Source: Halobaculum sp. XH14 (GTDB lineage Archaea; Halobacteriota; Halobacteria; Halobacteriales; Haloferacaceae). From it: a stretch of DNA of 64,000 bases. The notes below the pieces were generated by a model. It had not been told where the DNA came from, did no database searches, and was given only the letters and a program-made list of their open reading frames with translations. A program made the translations under genes and the position numbers. Location: NCBI RefSeq assembly GCF_032116555.1, contig NZ_CP134949.1:620001-684000 (forward strand), in the 5' to 3' direction. Positions 2,335 to 54,604 of the stretch are shown here, one piece after another; within the stretch, counting starts at the first letter, position 1; each line of letters opens with the position of its first letter.

Positions 2335-2712
2335 ATGCCGAGAGAGCAGAAGCAGGTCCGGGAACTCCAGGAAGGGAGCTACGTCATGATGGACGACTCC
2401 CCCTGTACGATCAACCACTACAGCACGGCGAAGCCGGGCAAGCACGGCAGCGCCAAGGCCCGCGTGGAGGGCAAGGGCGTCTTCGACGAGAAGAAGCGCA
2501 GCCTGAGCCAGCCCGTCGACGCGAAGGTCTGGGTCCCCATCATCGAGCGGAAGGGCGGCCAGGTCGTCTCCATCTCGGGCGACGACGCACAGATCATGGA
2601 CCTGGACACCTACGAGACGTTCACGATGCGCATCCCGGAGGGCGAAAGCTTCGAGCCGGACCAGAACATCGAGTACCTCGAGTACGAGGGCCAGCGGAAG
2701 GTCGTCGGATAA
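2335..2712 (+). CDS. eif5A: translation factor aIF5A
   Basis: A 125-residue archaeal/eukaryotic IF5A, the usual length. The N-terminal SH3-like domain carries the loop [11 protein letters not shown]; Lys36 is the residue that becomes (deoxy)hypusine. The C-terminal OB-fold domain ends with [12 protein letters not shown]5A binds the ribosomal E site and helps peptide bond formation at difficult motifs. The gene starts 25 bases after a TATA box. An agmatinase gene begins four bases after its stop, which fits a shared role in making the polyamine-derived modification. Confidence 0.96.
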
Positions 2713-2716
2713 CACC

Positions 2717-3577
2717 ATGACTGCCCCGTTCCCGGGCGCGCGGGCGGCCGGCGACGGGGGCGACTCGGCGACCTACCACCTCGTCGGCGCGCCGCTCGAC
2801 GCGACGACCACCTTCCGGCCGGGGACGCGGTTCGGCCCCGACCGCGTCCGCCGGTTCGCGGAACCGTTCGACGACTACGACCGCCGTACCGACTCGTTCT
2901 TCTCCGATGCGGGGGTCCGCGACGCCGGCGACGTCCGCGCCTGGGACGACGTGCCGGCCTACCTCGATCACCTGACCGGCGAACTCCGCGGCGCGGTCAT
3001 CGACGACGCGCTCCCGCTCACGCTGGGCGGCGAGCACACGGTCACCTGGGCGGGCGTCCGCGCGACGGAACCCGACGTGCTCGTCGTCCTCGACGCCCAC
3101 CTCGACCTCCGCGACGAGTACGACGGCAACCCCCTGAACCACGCCTGCGTCCTGCGGCGGTGTCTCGACGGGTTCGACGACGGCGACCCTCCGACCGTCG
3201 AGGAACTGGTCGTGGTCGGCGCGCGGACCGGCGCGCGAGAGGAGTGGGAGCGCGCCGACCGGGACGACGTCACGGTCGTCGCCCCCGAGGACGCCGCCGA
3301 GTGGCGCGAGCACGCGCCGGACCTGGCGGGTCGGGACGTCTACCTCTCGGTCGACGTCGACGCGGCGGACCCGGGGTTCGCCCCCGGGACCGGCACCATG
3401 GAGCCGTTCGGGCTGGGGCCCCGCGAACTGCGCGAGGTGGTTCGGGGCGTGGCCGGCCGCTGTGTCGGGTTCGACGTCGTCGAGGTGAACGACCGCGACG
3501 ACGGCCAGACGGCCGCGCTGGCCGGGAAACTGGTGCGCGAGTTCGTCCACTCTCACCGGGCCGATTCCGACTCGTGA
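2717..3577 (+). CDS. speB: agmatinase / arginase-family ureohydrolase
   Basis: A 286-residue ureohydrolase with all the dimanganese motifs: GGEHT near residue 100, DAHLDLRD near 125 and SVDVDAADP near 212, followed by FAPGTGTMEPFG. The family cleaves agmatine to putrescine and urea. In haloarchaea, where free spermidine is scarce, the neighbouring enzyme has been linked to hypusine formation through an agmatine intermediate (recalled from Haloferax work). The gene begins four bases after aIF5A, so the two are an operon. Assignment as agmatinase rather than another ureohydrolase rests on context. Confidence 0.88.
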   Translation: MTAPFPGARAAGDGGDSATYHLVGAPLDATTTFRPGTRFGPDRVRRFAEPFDDYDRRTDSFFSDAGVRDAGDVRAWDDVPAYLDHLTGELRGAVIDDALPLTLGGEHTVTWAGVRATEPDVLVVLDAHLDLRDEYDGNPLNHACVLRRCLDGFDDGDPPTVEELVVVGARTGAREEWERADRDDVTVVAPEDAAEWREHAPDLAGRDVYLSVDVDAADPGFAPGTGTMEPFGLGPRELREVVRGVAGRCVGFDVVEVNDRDDGQTAALAGKLVREFVHSHRADSDS

Positions 3578-5556: not shown

Positions 5557-5682
5557 CGATTGATCGGCTCGAAAGTCATCGCTATCGTCCTTTCGGGGAA
5601 GTTCGGTCGACGCTCCGACTGCCTCGAAAGCCCTCGGTGTATCGTATTCAGACCTGTCTCGGGTATCAGTGACGCACGCCTC

Positions 5683-5801
5683 GAAAGCCCCCTCGGCTGT
5701 CGACTCGGTGCGACTGCTGTGCTCCTCGGCTCGCTACGCTCGCCTGCGGTGCTTGACAGTCGCGCCATCGCCGACAGCCGAGGCCCCTTTCAGTCCCACC
5801 C
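5683..5801 (+). repeat. palindromic element A, copy 1
   Basis: The ends are GAAAG at 5683-5687 and CTTTC at 5787-5791, which pair. A 3x3 CCC/CCC mismatch follows, then a perfect 12-bp arm, cctcggctgtcg (5691-5702) with cgacagccgagg (5772-5783). The 69-base interior contains the module tgcggtgcttg shared with the other copies. The right end is ggcccctttcagtcccaccc (5782-5801), identical over 20 bases to the copy near 53.7 kb. A structured DNA or RNA element is inferred; mobility is not shown. Confidence 0.75.
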
Positions 5802-5820
5802 GACCGCACCGCCACCGCAC

Positions 5821-5935
5821 CTCACCCTCCCCAGCCTCCTGTGCTCCTCGATTCACTCGCTGCGCTCGTTCACCTGCGGTGCTCGTCCCTCGCGCGCGTC
5901 GACTCACCCCACGAGGGGGTTCGCGTCACGCGCGC
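5821..5935 (+). repeat. dispersed repeat B, copy 1
   Basis: This stretch is similar, in inverted orientation, to 53880-53982. Shared blocks in order are ccctcccca, gctcctcg, a GGTGCTCRTCCCTCGCGCGCG-like core, cccac(g/a)aggggg and cgcgtcacgcg. It directly follows element A1. No coding potential is seen. It may be a separate repeat family or the second half of a composite with A. Confidence 0.6.
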
Positions 5936-10195: not shown

Positions 10196-10280
10196 GTGCC
10201 GTCGTGCGTGGACCGGTCGGAACGGACCCGGGAACGACGACCACGTCCGGACCGATCGGATCACCCGCGCGGGACGAGGC

Positions 10281-10610
10281 TCAGAACGACTCGTTCTCGC
10301 TCTCGCCGACGCCCTCCCGCGTGTCGTTGGAGACGCCCCGATCCGAGTAGCGCTGTCGACCGACCGACTCGCTGGGCATGTGGTTGAGCGCCATCTGGCG
10401 GACCTCCCGGGTCGACTCGAAGGTGTCCTCGCCCATCGGGCCGAACAGCTCGGCGACCGTGATGGGGCCGGCGTTCGTCCGGCGGAACTCCCTGTCGCCG
10501 TGCTCGTCGATGAGTTCGTCGGCGGAGACCGGATACGAGAGTTCCTCGAGCGCGGCGTTGACGTCGACGAAGTCGACTCCCTCCTCCCGGTCGGTGTCCT
10601 CCCTGGCCAT
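10281..10610 (-). CDS. DUF5789-like haloarchaeal protein, paralogue 1
   Basis: A 109-residue acidic cytoplasmic protein. Conserved segments are EGVDFVDVNAALEELSYPVSA, DELIDEHGDREF, FESTREVRQMALNHMPSESVGR and YSDRG. A second copy at 48848-49177 shares each of these blocks in the same order, so this is a real family; the DUF5789 name is from memory. No function is known. The ATG sits 24-31 bases from a TATA-like GTTACACC on the coding strand. Confidence 0.8.
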   Translation of the reverse strand: MAREDTDREEGVDFVDVNAALEELSYPVSADELIDEHGDREFRRTNAGPITVAELFGPMGEDTFESTREVRQMALNHMPSESVGRQRYSDRGVSNDTREGVGESENESF

Positions 10611-11095
10611 ACGCCACGTTCGGCCGCCGAGGTGTAACCGGTTGTCACCAGTCCGTGCCCAGTCGGTGCCGCCTTTGATTGGTCACTGGCGGTGGACGTG
10701 TGTTCCTCGTCGGGCCGGTTGGGAGTGGTTCGGAGTTGGGTCAGTGGGTCTCGGGACCCGGACTCTCGGTAGCGGATGACGCTTGACGGCCCACACTCCA
10801 CGATTCATCAGAAGGTACGAGCGGTAGCTCGGGATTCGGGACCGACGACCGGCGGGACGTTCGCGGCGTTCAAGGGGGGTAATGGAATAAATCATGAAAC
10901 TCCACGAGGCGCTAATCGAATACGTGAGCGCCGATCCCGAGGACAAAGAACTCGGGACAATGATTGTTTCGAACGGCGATGGGAGCTAACGGAGTTGATT
11001 CGGCAGTAGTTATATTTCGGCAATCCGTTCCAGCGAAAACCTGACTACTGAGCCCATTGCAATGAGCTTCTGAAAATCAAGACCGATGTGCGAAG
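10611..11095. other. sparse region at the edge of a lower-GC island
   Basis: This 485-base gap contains the promoter of the DUF5789-like gene at its left end, a possible 31-codon gene at 10894-10989, and AT-richer sequence from about 10880 onward. The longer open frames on either strand lack typical haloarchaeal codon use and are not called. Confidence 0.5.
10894..10989 (+). CDS. possible 31-residue protein
   Basis: The ATG at 10894 opens a 31-codon frame reading MKLHEALIEYVSADPEDKEL and then GTMIVSNGDGS. The amphipathic N-terminal helix followed by an acidic turn looks protein-like, and codon use is sensible. There is a G-rich stretch about 16 bases upstream but no well-placed Shine-Dalgarno sequence. 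It may be an intact small protein or the start of a truncated gene in the lower-GC island. No family is recognised. Confidence 0.3.
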   Translation: MKLHEALIEYVSADPEDKELGTMIVSNGDGS

Positions 11096-27371: not shown

Positions 27372-27496
27372 GCCGATCCACGGGGAGGACCCACCTTCTG
27401 GGGCAACGTTCCCGACCATCCCGCGACGACGACCGCCCGACTGACCACAGCGGTACGGGCGTCAGTCGGCGGACGCGCTCGGCCCGATCGACCATC

Positions 27497-27707
27497 GGGT
27501 TGGACTGAACGGGGCCGCGTCGCTCGGGGAACCCCGACCCCTCAAGCACCGCAGGGAGCGAACGAAGTGAGCGACTGAGGAGCGCAGAGCGGGTCGCGGG
27601 AGGTCACGCGAGCGTAAGCGAGGGTGACTTCGGAAGTCGCAGCCCGCGCAGCGAGCGTAGCGAGCGAGCAGGAACGTCTTCCGTAACCGAGCGACGCGGG
27701 GGCTTTC
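27497..27707 (-). repeat. palindromic element A, copy 2
   Basis: Read on the minus strand this is GAAAG, CCC, the 13-bp arm ccgcgtcgctcgg, an interior of about 159 bases, the matching arm ccgagcgacgcgg, CCC and CGTTCAGTCCaACCC. Plus-strand arms are 27515-27527 and 27687-27699. The end motif differs from copies 1 and 3 at two bases. The interior is longer than in the others: it has the common module aagcaccgcagg plus an extra block around 27602-27628. Confidence 0.75.
27602..27628 (+). repeat. module C, copy in element A2
   Basis: The segment from ggtcacgcgagcg to agcgagggtgac is repeated at 53829-53854 with a one-base length difference. Its ends (GTCAC and GTGAC) are complementary. It sits inside element A2 here but outside element A3 there, so the repeat blocks appear to be assembled from exchangeable modules. 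Confidence 0.55.
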
Positions 27708-48679: not shown

Positions 48680-48847
48680 GGTGAACGGGTGAACGTTCGT
48701 CGCCGCGGGCGTGAATCCGTCGGTGCCGGCGGCGGTGGCCGGGTCGAGGCTTCGGGTGCCAGTTCGGGCGTGGCCGCGGTCGTTCAGACGGGACTCCCTC
48801 GGGAAATCGGCGACAAGAGGTAACCCCGTCGAGGTACAAGCCACCGC

Positions 48848-49177
48848 ATGGCCGACGACGACACCGAGCGCGAGGGAGGCGTCGACTTCTCGGCGATCAA
48901 CCCGCTACTGGCGGAGCTCTCGTATCCGGTGACCGCGGAGGAACTCGTCGAACGGCACGGCGACAGGGAGTTGAAGCCGACCAACGCCGAGCCAATCTCG
49001 ATCGCGGAGCTGTTCGAGCCGATGGGCGACGCGACGTTCGAGTCGGCCGAGGAGGTGCGCCGGATGGCGCTCGGCCAGATGCCCAGCGAGTCGGTCGGCA
49101 GGGAGGGGTACTCGGACCGCGGCACCGACGTCGACACGGGGGACGAGGACGAGGCGGCCGGGGACGAGTCGTTCTGA
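48848..49177 (+). CDS. DUF5789-like haloarchaeal protein, paralogue 2
   Basis: A 109-residue acidic protein. It matches the gene at 10281-10610 along its length: GVDFSAINPLLAELSYPVTA, EELVERHGDREL, TFESAEEVRRMALGQMPSES and GREGYSDRG. The shared order and length show paralogy. Function is unknown. It is followed on the same strand by the DUF5802-like gene. Confidence 0.82.
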   Translation: MADDDTEREGGVDFSAINPLLAELSYPVTAEELVERHGDRELKPTNAEPISIAELFEPMGDATFESAEEVRRMALGQMPSESVGREGYSDRGTDVDTGDEDEAAGDESF

Positions 49178-49308
49178 TCCGGTCGCGGGCGAGTTCGACC
49201 CGGCCAGCGACGGAGAAATCGCCGACGGCAGTAGGGTGATTGCACGCCGATATAATGCTTATCGGTAACACTTAACAAGGGCTCGGCGGCTACCATCAGT
49301 TGCACGGC

Positions 49309-52179: not shown

Positions 52180-53445
52180 CTAGCAGGAGCAGTAGTACTC
52201 GCGGTCGGTGAACTCGGTCTCGACCAGCCGAGCAGCCGGGTCCGGGTCGGACGGCCGATACACGCCGGTCGTGAGGTCACTCCCGTCCTCGAAGGCGCCC
52301 GAAACCAGGCTCGCCCAGTCGTCGGTCGAGAGCACGTCCCAGAACGCCGGGTCGGTCGCACACAGTTCGAGGTAGTCGCGGAGGTACACCCAGCGCGCGT
52401 CGCCGACGCCGTCCCCGGCCTCGCCCGCGCGGGCGACGTCCAGTTCGTACTCGGCGTCCGTCACCGCGGCGTAGGCGGCCATCGGCAGGTTCGCGCCCGC
52501 GGCGACGGGCAGCGAGATCCACTTCCAGGGCCGGGTGTTGATGTCGAGGAGGACGTACTGCTCGCGCTCCGCGTCGTAGACGAACTCCGCCTCGCTGATG
52601 CCGTGATAGTCGGTTTCGGCGAGCACCGAGAGCGCGCGGTCGCGGACCGCGGGTTCCGCGACCGTCTCCACCAGACACGAGGTGCCGAACTGACGGGGGA
52701 AGCGGACCGCGGCGTTGCCGACGACCGCGAGCGCGTCGTCCACGCCCGAGGGCGGGACGTACGAGGCGAGCGACGTGTCAGCGCCGGTCTCCACGGGCAC
52801 CTTCTCCTGGAGGAGCACCGTCGCGCCGGCGTCCTCGGCGGCGGCGACGGTCTCGTCGAGTTCGGCGCGCGAGTCGACCTCGACGACGTTCGTGCCGAAC
52901 GCCTCCTCGAACTTCCGCTTGTGCGCGGGTTTGACGACGAGCGGGAACCCGAGCGCCTCGACGACCGCCTCGGCGGGCGTCTCGGAGAGCCGGTACGTCT
53001 CGGGGTAGGGGACGCCGAGTTCCTCACAGAGGCGGTAGAGGTTGTCCTTGTCCAGCACGCGCTCGATGCCCTCGTGGTCCGAGAACGGGAGCCTGACGCC
53101 CTCGGGTTCGGTCCGGGCGAACCCGCGGACCCAGTCGTCCATGCACGCGAACGCGACGCAGTCGATTCCCGCAGCTTCGACGACGCGCTCGACGTCCTCG
53201 CGGAACCCGTCCATGTCGTCGAGCGGGTAGGTTACCTCGCCCGCGAAGTCGATCGTCCCGGAGGGCCAGGCGACGCCCGAGCCGGTGCGGTCGAGCGCGA
53301 TCACGGGGACGCCGTGGGCGTCGAGCGCGCGGGCGACGCTCACGCCGGTGACGTGGGCGTTGGCGACGAGCGCGGGCGGCCCGTCGAACGACGCCGATTC
53401 GAGGGCTTCGATCAGCGCGTCGGTGTCGTGGAACGCGTCTGCCAT
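52180..53445 (-). CDS. ATP-grasp carboxylate-amine ligase-like protein
   Basis: A 421-residue ATP-grasp enzyme. The N-terminal Rossmann-like part (ALVANAHVTGVSVARALDAH) is followed by DKDNLYRLCEELGVPYPETY, FPLVVKPAHKRKFEE (the ATP-binding lysine), and YVLLDINTRPWKWISLPVA, which holds the metal-binding Asp and Asn. It ligates an amine to an acyl phosphate of unknown acid. The C-terminus ends with YYCSC. The start at 53445 is the first ATG with a good fold. Confidence 0.85.
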   Translation of the reverse strand: MADAFHDTDALIEALESASFDGPPALVANAHVTGVSVARALDAHGVPVIALDRTGSGVAWPSGTIDFAGEVTYPLDDMDGFREDVERVVEAAGIDCVAFACMDDWVRGFARTEPEGVRLPFSDHEGIERVLDKDNLYRLCEELGVPYPETYRLSETPAEAVVEALGFPLVVKPAHKRKFEEAFGTNVVEVDSRAELDETVAAAEDAGATVLLQEKVPVETGADTSLASYVPPSGVDDALAVVGNAAVRFPRQFGTSCLVETVAEPAVRDRALSVLAETDYHGISEAEFVYDAEREQYVLLDINTRPWKWISLPVAAGANLPMAAYAAVTDAEYELDVARAGEAGDGVGDARWVYLRDYLELCATDPAFWDVLSTDDWASLVSGAFEDGSDLTTGVYRPSDPDPAARLVETEFTDREYYCSC

Positions 53446-53571
53446 CGATTGCTCTATTGTGGTTACGGGGAAAGACCCACGCTAGTCGGTCGTCTCTGCC
53501 GTCGCCGATGACGCCGTGTTCTCTAATTTCTTCGTGCGTGATTCTCCGTGGACTACCGTTATGGTGGCCGC

Positions 53572-53694
53572 GAAAGCCCCCGCTGCTCTCGGCTCGCGCG
53601 CCTCGCTGCGCTCCTCGTCGCTCACTGCGTTCGCTCCTGCGGTGCTTGCGTCGTCGTGCTTCCCCGAGAGCAGCGGCCCCTTTCAGTCCCACCC
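53572..53694 (+). repeat. palindromic element A, copy 3
   Basis: GAAAG (53572-53576) pairs with CTTTC (53680-53684), then CCC/CCC mismatch, then the perfect 13-bp arm ccgctgctctcgg (53580-53592) with ccgagagcagcgg (53664-53676). The interior holds the shared module cgttcgctcctgcggtgctt. The right end ggcccctttcagtcccaccc (53675-53694) is identical to copy 1. Confidence 0.75.
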
Positions 53695-53828
53695 GCCGAT
53701 TAGTCGACCGAGCGTCGTTCCCCCGACTACCGCACGTACCGCCGTCGGTAGTCCGTCGAGGCGTCCGCCCGTCCGGCCGACGGTGACGCTGGCAGCAGGG
53801 GTGCGGTCGGCGCCTGCTTGCGGCTGGC

Positions 53829-53854
53829 GGTCACGCGAGCGGAGCGAGGGTGAC
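53829..53854 (+). repeat. module C, copy near 53.8 kb
   Basis: ggtcacgcgagc, ggagc and gagggtgac match 27602-27628 in element A2. Here it lies between elements A3 and B2. Confidence 0.5.
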
Positions 53855-53858
53855 GTCA

Positions 53859-53875
53859 CGGGACCGGAGGTCCCG
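53859..53875. repeat. hairpin CGGGACC-GGA-GGTCCCG
   Basis: Seven-base perfect arms flank a three-base loop, directly after the palindrome TGACGTCA (53851-53858). It lies between module C and element B2. In RNA it would be a stable hairpin. Confidence 0.5.
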
Positions 53876-53879
53876 GGTA

Positions 53880-53982
53880 ACGCGTGACGCGAGCCCCCCT
53901 TGTGGGGCGAGCACTCGCGCGCGAGGGATGAGCACCGGAGCGAGCTTGCGAGCGAGGAGCGCAAGCGGTTGGGGAGGGCGAG
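53880..53982 (-). repeat. dispersed repeat B, copy 2
   Basis: Read on the minus strand this has the same order of blocks as 5821-5935: cctcgccctcccca, gcgctcctcg, ggtgctcatccctcgcgcgcg (split in two at the R position), ccccacaagggggg and cgcgtcacgcg. Orientation relative to element A is opposite to that at 5.8 kb. Confidence 0.6.
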
Positions 53983-54064
53983 GCCCTCCTCGGTCAAGCA
54001 GTGGTGGTCAGCCTGACCGGACAAGCAACGGCTGTGATCTGGAGTCGATATCAGAGCGCGTCGC

Positions 54065-54068
54065 TTAA
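54065..54068 (+). promoter_or_regulatory. TATA-like box for the DUF5813-like gene
   Basis: TTAA in tcgcttaaccc lies 27-30 bases before the ATG at 54095. Confidence 0.5.
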
Positions 54069-54094
54069 CCCGACCCGACCCCTGAGGAACCCAC

Positions 54095-54604
54095 ATGAGC
54101 GAACTCCCCGGGCGAGTCGGCCGCGCCCTCCGGGACCACGACGCGTTCGTCGACGACCCGGACGAGCACGGGGCCGACGAGGTTCCGAACACGAGCACCC
54201 CGTTCGACGCCAGCGTCGCCGTCGCGGAGCGCGAGGACGGTCGCGTCGAGTTCGACGTCACCGTGGGCGTCCCGACCATCGACGCCGTCGCCGAGGAGCA
54301 CGTCGCCGACGTGGTCGCGGACGGCTGGTACGAGACGTTCGAGCGTCGGATCCACGACGTCGGCGACGTCACGGCCGCCGGCCACGAGCTCTCCCCGAGC
54401 GTCGTCCGCGAGGACGGCGTCGTCGTCGTCTCGGCCGCCTTCGCGGATCTGAACGAGCGCCGGAGCGTGAACGACGCCGCCGCAGTCGTCGACTTCGTTG
54501 AGGGAACCTACGTCCAGGGCGTCATCCCCGGCTACGAGTACGGCGAGCCGGTGACGAGCCTCATCGGCAGGGCGCGGGCCGCGGCCGGCAGCGACGGGGC
54601 CTGA
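54095..54604 (+). CDS. DUF5813-like haloarchaeal protein
   Basis: A 169-residue acidic protein. GRALRDHDAFVDDPDEHG, a strand pair FDASVAVAEREDGRVEFDVT and VTVGVPTIDAV, and ending GVIPGYEYGEPVTSLIGRAR. It resembles the haloarchaeal family remembered as DUF5813. No function is known. Its TGA stop and that of the following minus-strand gene abut in the palindrome TGATCA. Confidence 0.75.
   Translation: MSELPGRVGRALRDHDAFVDDPDEHGADEVPNTSTPFDASVAVAEREDGRVEFDVTVGVPTIDAVAEEHVADVVADGWYETFERRIHDVGDVTAAGHELSPSVVREDGVVVVSAAFADLNERRSVNDAAAVVDFVEGTYVQGVIPGYEYGEPVTSLIGRARAAAGSDGA

Follow-up and report, generated by a model that had tools for sequence, protein, structure and literature searches.

Dispersed, probably non-autonomous hairpin mosaic repeats in haloarchaeal intergenic DNA and a composite repeat island in a Halobaculum-related genome

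The gene-free gap at 53446-54094 of the window, which is the whole stretch of 64,000 nucleotides analysed (G000:C1:620001-684000), raises the question of whether the repeats within its 649 bases form a local regulatory region for the adjoining genes or belong to a composite found in many places. The gap had been given the same length in the initial annotation, which read its content as a functional or mobile composite, possibly non-autonomous, recurring in gaps that follow gene ends. The window belongs to a Halobaculum-related genome of 3.68 Mb in three contigs (G000, the own genome), and two relatives of the same genus were used for comparison, the sister genome G001 and G002. Genes were called with a dicodon script and eight proteins were checked by Pfam, revealing that two gene starts face the gap, so that the siting after gene ends does not hold here. 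From left to right the island consists of an element A3, a tail with a short palindrome, a 51-bp insert and an element B2. The features of the window are given below, where R1 denotes a covariance model built from 44 own A copies.

5666-5801, plus strand: element A1, retained at the orthologous gap of G001
5819-5930, minus strand: element B1, 17 nt past A1, core oriented as in A1
27495-27638, minus strand: element A2, 5' part degenerate, R1 63.7 bits; gene order broken here in G001
52180-53445, minus strand: left flanking gene, weak ATP-grasp matches (Pfam)
53555-53694, plus strand: element A3 of the A family, a 17-nt conserved lead followed by GAAAG ... CCCACCC (nhmmer)
53572-53576, plus strand: 5' strand of helix P1, GAAAG, partner CTTTC at 53680-53684, 97.7% of cells paired
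53577-53579, plus strand: CCC internal loop, opposite CCC at 53677-53679 (GGG/GGG on the bottom strand), invariant alignment columns
53580-53592, plus strand: 5' arm of P2, copy-specific sequence, both sides changed at 10 of 13 pairs
53664-53676, plus strand: 3' arm of P2
53677-53694, plus strand: 3' end of A, CCCCTTTCAGTCCCACCC
53697-53758 (about), plus strand: tail or spacer with a GTCGRCCGAGC palindrome, resembling the sequence that separates twin A copies in other genera
53831-53881, plus strand: 51-bp two-hairpin insert, holding the palindrome TGACGTCA at 53851-53858 and a hairpin at 53859-53875
53882-54006, plus strand: element B2 (nhmmer)
54095-54604, plus strand: right flanking gene, DUF5813 (Pfam)

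The island in the 649-base gap is not due to chance, and the 18-base end CCCCTTTCAGTCCCACCC, allowing up to three mismatches, occurs four times in the window compared to 0.05 expected from shuffles. A3 is matched by R1 at 53565-53696 with 129 bits, and its left limit was set where conservation drops, 17 nt before GAAAG. As had been proposed, A3 matches A1 and many other places, the adjoining A1 and B1 have their shared core pointing one way, and B2 is inverted with respect to A3; B2 matches the inverted B1 and at least 47 places in the own genome. The content placed by the initial annotation at 53572-53982 was recovered, with the limits moved outwards at both ends, A starting upstream at about 53555 and B ending further on at about 54006. 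Its parts were also recovered, except that module C (for which no coordinates had been given, here taken as the first 23 bases of the insert), the TGACGTCA palindrome and the hairpin, CGGGACC-GGA-GGTCCCG with seven-base arms, are not separate but form one 51-bp unit, 53831-53881.

When searching the own genome by BLAST, A was found at no fewer than 44 places (best 40 of 202 candidates scored), and nhmmer gave 84 matches to A and 75 to B; cut-offs of >=40 bits (64 copies) and >=55 bits (54 copies) were applied to A and one of >=40 bits (45 copies) to B. R1 gave at least 102 matches in the same genome (best 150 of 8639 candidates scored). In a search of 60 genomes with strict filters and no more than 56 candidates scored in each, where all counts, per genome and overall, are lower bounds, matches at E<=1e-4 were found in at least 40, the own genome included, covering several families of the order, and no match at this threshold was found in 20. 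Outside chromosomes, a search of 72,556 plasmid records found A in at least 28, every one listed bearing a haloarchaeal name, and the copies on these plasmids carry no annotation. The pattern GAAAGCCCC-N72-102-GGCCCCTTTCAGTCCCACC was found in at least 120 stretches when species genomes were searched, and all 80 titles listed are from Halobacteria. Viral carriers were considered and rejected, as no A was found in phage records and no A end pattern in IMG/VR contigs. A search of Rfam returned no match to A above the gathering score, only miRNA-like and other chance matches below the threshold, and in the open-licence literature searched no mention of the A end sequence was found.

In relation to genes, 63 of the 64 A copies at >=40 bits in the own genome are intergenic and the last one lies at a stretch end. 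Their gaps are divergent in 15 cases, convergent in 11 and co-directional in 37, counts biased towards A gaps because the own stretches were selected for A or B matches, and the rule that such gaps follow gene ends fails for the family as it does for the gap at 53446-54094. Within co-directional gaps A lies on the same strand as the genes in 16 cases and on the opposite strand in 21, that is without strand bias, and a terminator or 3'-end element was ruled out by the lack of any gene-class or strand preference. In 400 kb of G001, chosen regardless of A, none of the 15 A matches overlaps a called gene.

The copies have a clear polarity, with the 5' end of A pointing outward, nearer the gene, in 49 of 53 cases, and the A pairs within 800 bp in the own genome are all inverted with their 5' ends out (10 of 10). 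B carries the inner motif of A, reversed, and an A followed by an inverted B therefore has both cores in one direction. In this shared-core orientation B is found 4-91 nt downstream of A in 28 of 54 cases, with 4-29 nt between the two in 26, and the same order occurs on a Haloarcula plasmid, supporting the recurrent joining of A and B that had been noticed from the window. Among 122 copies from other genera, an inverted partner end stands 18-29 nt downstream in 21 and 94-98 nt downstream in three. From the inversion of the A pairs and these counts the basic unit thus seems to be an A-spacer-A inverted twin or an A-B pair, from which the island in the window differs by rearrangement, its B being inverted and the 51-bp insert added. 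The target-site duplications that the initial annotation had thought of were not found at 50 A copies; for k=4 to 8 the matches were not above shuffles, save a slight excess at k=5 (14/50, reached by 6/200 shuffles).

The A unit, about 105-146 nt, has a constant frame, GAAAG-CCC ... CCC-CTTTC-AGTCCCACC, enclosing a core that can be exchanged and a long stem whose sequence is specific to the copy. Over the 44 own copies, four helices are paired in 96.3% of 1138 cells, changes on both sides were found in 140 cells compared to 39.5 expected from shuffles, and the covariation score is 0.352 against 0.097, a signal that is abolished when the partners are slid. One of the P1 pairs is A-T in 32 copies and G-C in 11. 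An independent set of copies matters here because the structure was partly derived from the same 44 sequences, and a set of 122 taken from other haloarchaea gave Watson-Crick pairing in 1109 of 1220 cells at the ten variable P2 pairs, its P2 5' arms comprising 80 distinct sequences, the stem sequence being private to the copy.

The remaining cells of the 122 copies, as written, comprise 44 A.C, 8 G.T and 59 other combinations, the bias between the first two having a binomial p of 2e-7 (34 to 7 and p 1e-5 with one copy per distinct arm), and the 44 own copies contain 20 A.C and 5 G.T. Since A.C on one strand is G.T on the other, the bottom strand seems to be the folded one and, judging from these mismatches, looks like the strand whose fold is kept, although a mutational strand bias could yield the same mismatch sign. 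The folding energy of a single copy does not favour the bottom strand, A3 having a z of -3.23 for the top and -2.18 for the bottom strand as DNA; for the bottom strand as RNA it is -3.35. The CCC/CCC loop and the unpaired columns of P4, both conserved, argue against palindrome correction as the sole cause of the kept pairing. The best-kept parts of the frame are four C tracts (G tracts on the bottom strand), with 41 of 44 own copies ending in CCC-N-CCC and 114 of 122 others carrying a C next to the CCCACC of the pattern, and because of this conservation it is possible that the bottom strand forms a quadruplex-duplex. The intracellular potassium of haloarchaea is in the molar range.

A second type of core within the same frame was found in 16 of the 122 copies using a loose motif rule. 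It occurs in L105, L110, L116, L139, L142 and L183 (Halorussus, Haladaptatus and others) with the motifs GACATATC ... GATAGGGGTC and ACGACCAAGATAAACGCG, and the loci scanned gave no Rfam match above the gathering score. Two 41-nt remnants of A in the own genome, L014 (G000:C1:527496-527536) and L020 (G000:C1:856339-856379), consist of both ends joined via CCGCGG and are probably deletions between the palindromic arms.

Orthologous gaps, compared between species and genera, show gain, loss and REARRANGEMENT, the sites being gained, empty or collapsed to a scar. At the site of the window island, G001 holds a decayed island made up of an A left end and a weak match to B, the other genera G006, G004 and G015 have short gaps containing neither A nor B, and the gene order is broken in G002. 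The clean edges that had been looked for were not seen at this exact site, the island of G001 being decayed and the other gaps short and unalignable. According to the initial annotation, an island always present here and never elsewhere would be a local regulatory region; both halves of this are contradicted, as R1 has at least 102 matches across the own genome and three genera lack the island at this place. A1 and B1 are both retained at the orthologous gap in G001, and of four syntenic A copies that genome retains one, has two (A3 and L021) in decayed form and lacks the fourth, a record that fits slow turnover more than active movement. The comparisons, all made between species, showed no very recent insertion.

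Using a twin island of G045 as query in one genus of 11 species, the flanking genes were matched in all 11. This gap contains A matches in G045, G063, G065 and G068, and a portion of the island is present in G006 and G060. In G061 and G062 only 21-22 bases separate the aligned genes, with no scar. In G066 the two outer ends of A alone remain, joined (CTCGAAAGCCCCCGCGTGGGCTTTC), which is a collapse and thereby a loss, and loss could account for some of the empty sites. G067 has 151 bases at the site, where the stretch read gave no match to the repeats, and in G064 the gene order is broken. A gain is seen in the cobalamin operon of Haloarcula rara (CP119786), where the cbiF stop and the cbiG start are separated by 414 nt holding A followed by B; in three of seven other records the spacing is 1, -4 (overlap) and 108 bases, and in the remaining four it is short, judged from match spans. 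Beside this A-B island, at L081:1500-1924 (CP119786.1), the reading of cbiF shifts frame ahead of the conserved EADD at its end, which is either a sequencing error or a broken gene. When comparing gene order between G000 and G001, block junctions were broken in 7 of 11 cases with A and in 14 of 67 without (Fisher p 0.007, the junctions being treated as independent).

The 51-bp insert is itself repeated, and the 54 own sources contain 14 copies of its variants, which are clean-edged and confined to two fixed sites within B. The unit stands at the same position against B in L008, L011 and L028, and similar two-hairpin inserts are nested within A copies in L011, L017, L022 and L024. It has two near-terminal palindromes, a length of about 50 bp and, in the aligned contexts, no target duplication, all of which are features of terminal-only PATEs. 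The insert at 53831-53881 resembles the terminal-only PATEs of Haloquadratum (52 bp) in its two palindromes and its length, and also in lacking an inverted terminal repeat and lying clean-edged in other repeats, as these are described in PMC3119063. It differs from IS605-type PATEs in that G000, which carries it, has no match to a Y1 transposase. A PATE has been described in the genome of a Halorubrum virus and in its host (account in PMC10544981).

Among known systems the closest, together with the bacterial REP, BIME and REPIN elements, is SMR-A of Haloquadratum walsbyi (HqIRS42, 43 and 55), which in the description given in PMC3119063 is about 110 bp long with inverted ends, is present in tens of copies, is mobilised in an enigmatic way with neither target duplication nor transposase, and inserts mainly in PATEs and IS605 transposons, at near-terminal palindromes. 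A is likewise about 110 bp with prominent inverted ends and lacks a target duplication. Unlike SMR-A, in a limited test, it lies in plain intergenic DNA between ordinary genes and is itself an insertion target. R1 gave two matches in G007, which we take to be Haloquadratum walsbyi C23, and with so few matches A and SMR-A are probably different in sequence.

A 5' tetranucleotide is part of the definition of REP elements. With the REP, BIME and REPIN group A shares dispersed intergenic palindromes, mosaics, tens to hundreds of copies, the absence of target duplication and inverted twins (10 of 10 own pairs and 21 of 122 distant copies with the partner at 18-29 nt). It departs from that group in its unit of 105-146 nt instead of 20-40 bp (a range also given in the abstract of PMC3733652), in lacking a 5' tetranucleotide tag, in a stem that is private to each copy and in that most genomes with many A copies have no match to a Y1 (RAYT) transposase. 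By analogy A would work like a REP or BIME mosaic, the tests for a RAYT-dependent REP and for a MITE having failed. REPs in archaea have been reported using a generic tool in PMC12306157, the main text of which does not contain "halo". A MITE was rejected as an identity: A is short and non-coding with inverted ends, but no target duplication was found (50 copies), no cognate transposase was found, and only P1 and the C tracts are common to the copies, the P2 arms being unshared with 80 distinct sequences in 122. An autonomous parent with A-like ends was also looked for, in a non-exhaustive search of the own stretches, and discarded; six right ends there lack a left end within 260 bp, compared to 61 that are complete, and none of the six pointed to a gene-bearing element.

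The reading that we moderately favour is that these are non-autonomous hairpin mosaic repeats, intergenic in haloarchaea and multiplied by a trans-acting factor. Small non-coding hairpin repeats would thus have been multiplied through the intergenic DNA by a factor in trans, the folded single strand (bottom, 5'-GGTGGGACTGAAAGGGG...) being, as we infer, recognised by a mobilising or processing enzyme in replication or repair, which need not be a Y1 transposase of the same genome. The 51-bp two-hairpin elements would have jumped into B and into A, copies would decay by palindrome collapse, and A/B islands may serve as recombination sites where the chromosome rearranges. Of the first interpretation of the island, the composite nature is supported and a non-autonomous, movable element is likely, considering the plasmids, the 40 of 60 genomes and cbiF-cbiG; the siting at gene ends and the target duplications are not supported. 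A3 and B2 probably have no effect on gene regulation, a lack of gene function that we infer. The strong conservation of the loops across families hints at a function beyond a purely selfish one, and a more tentative proposal, held with rather low confidence, is that A copies throughout Halobacteria represent a DNA element, mobile or functional, that has not been described before, with the folded bottom strand as its working form, an enzyme or protein other than Y1 recognising it and an exchangeable core. In that case the P1 and P2 helices around the GGG/GGG loop, together with the GGGTGGG tail, could form the quadruplex-duplex.

Against multiplication by a factor in trans, four other explanations have to be weighed. 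A may instead be a structured RNA with the bottom strand transcribed from the centre outward, as a small RNA, a ribozyme-like unit or a cis-regulator, which is rather improbable. Covariation is accompanied by conserved single-stranded motifs, the mismatches are of the wobble type on the bottom strand (44 to 8), the bottom strand of A3 folds well as RNA (z -3.35) and two different cores occur in one frame, but A has no orientation relative to genes, the Rfam gathering scores are not reached, and about a hundred copies with private stems would be odd for a single regulator. G-U pairs make up 0.5% of A pairs on the written strand and about 3.8% on the bottom strand, compared to 7.3% in 14 predicted tRNAs; an argument that few G-U pairs exclude an RNA was abandoned as the bottom-strand count shows that wobble is tolerated. 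For bacterial BIMEs a role in binding chromosome proteins has been proposed, and by analogy A could be bound by a protein concerned with topology, segregation or insulation and kept for that role. The intergenic position spread evenly over gap types, the frame conserved across Halobacteria and the retention of A1 and B1 in the sister genome agree with such a role, which nevertheless appears unlikely given that 20 of 60 genomes have no copy (E<=1e-4, strict filters), that positions differ between genera and that plasmids carry copies too.

It is very unlikely that the repeats are remnants of REP/REPIN or IS200/IS605 (PATE) elements that a Y1 (RAYT/TnpA) transposase had mobilised, as might be supposed from the hairpins, the inverted twins, the missing target duplication and the likeness of the 51-bp insert to the terminal-only PATEs of 52 bp (PMC3119063). 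Copies do not have their stem sequence in common, the REP-like 5' tetranucleotide is lacking, and Y1_Tnp (PF01797) was not matched in 9 of the 13 genomes with at least 27 R1 matches, namely G000, G001, G002 and six other high-copy genomes, so that the repeats do not need a Y1 transposase residing in their genome; among the 20 genomes lacking R1 matches, 10 have PF01797. That the island is a local regulatory region serving the two divergent genes, for which the position between two gene starts and the left end of A in G001 could speak, is scarcely credible and is rejected because the same modules are dispersed over about a hundred other gaps and the site in three other genera is a short gap with no A or B.

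If multiplication in trans is true, haloarchaea would hold a large and ancient population of hairpin elements, spread without the transposase of bacterial REPs, and thereby a natural system for studying how a folded single strand gets copied or inserted. The elements coincide with gene-order breaks and may explain part of the rearrangement of haloarchaeal genomes, and a class-wide covariance model would permit A copies to be masked or studied.

Elsewhere in the window, a 336-nt inverted repeat at 10278-10613 and 48845-49180 has 75% complementarity, and each arm holds an ORF of about 109 aa; these are probably two paralogous genes. On a plasmid of Natrinema thermotolerans (CP031298.1) an A copy at L084:2001-2108 is situated about 530 nt before a gene at 2639-3535 encoding a replication factor A-like DNA-binding protein. 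The non-coding stretch between the two is kept on many haloarchaeal plasmids, with 153 records matching the region, where the matches of Halobaculum roseum and Haloprofundus begin exactly at the 5' end of A and others just past A, and this conserved stretch is possibly a plasmid origin region.
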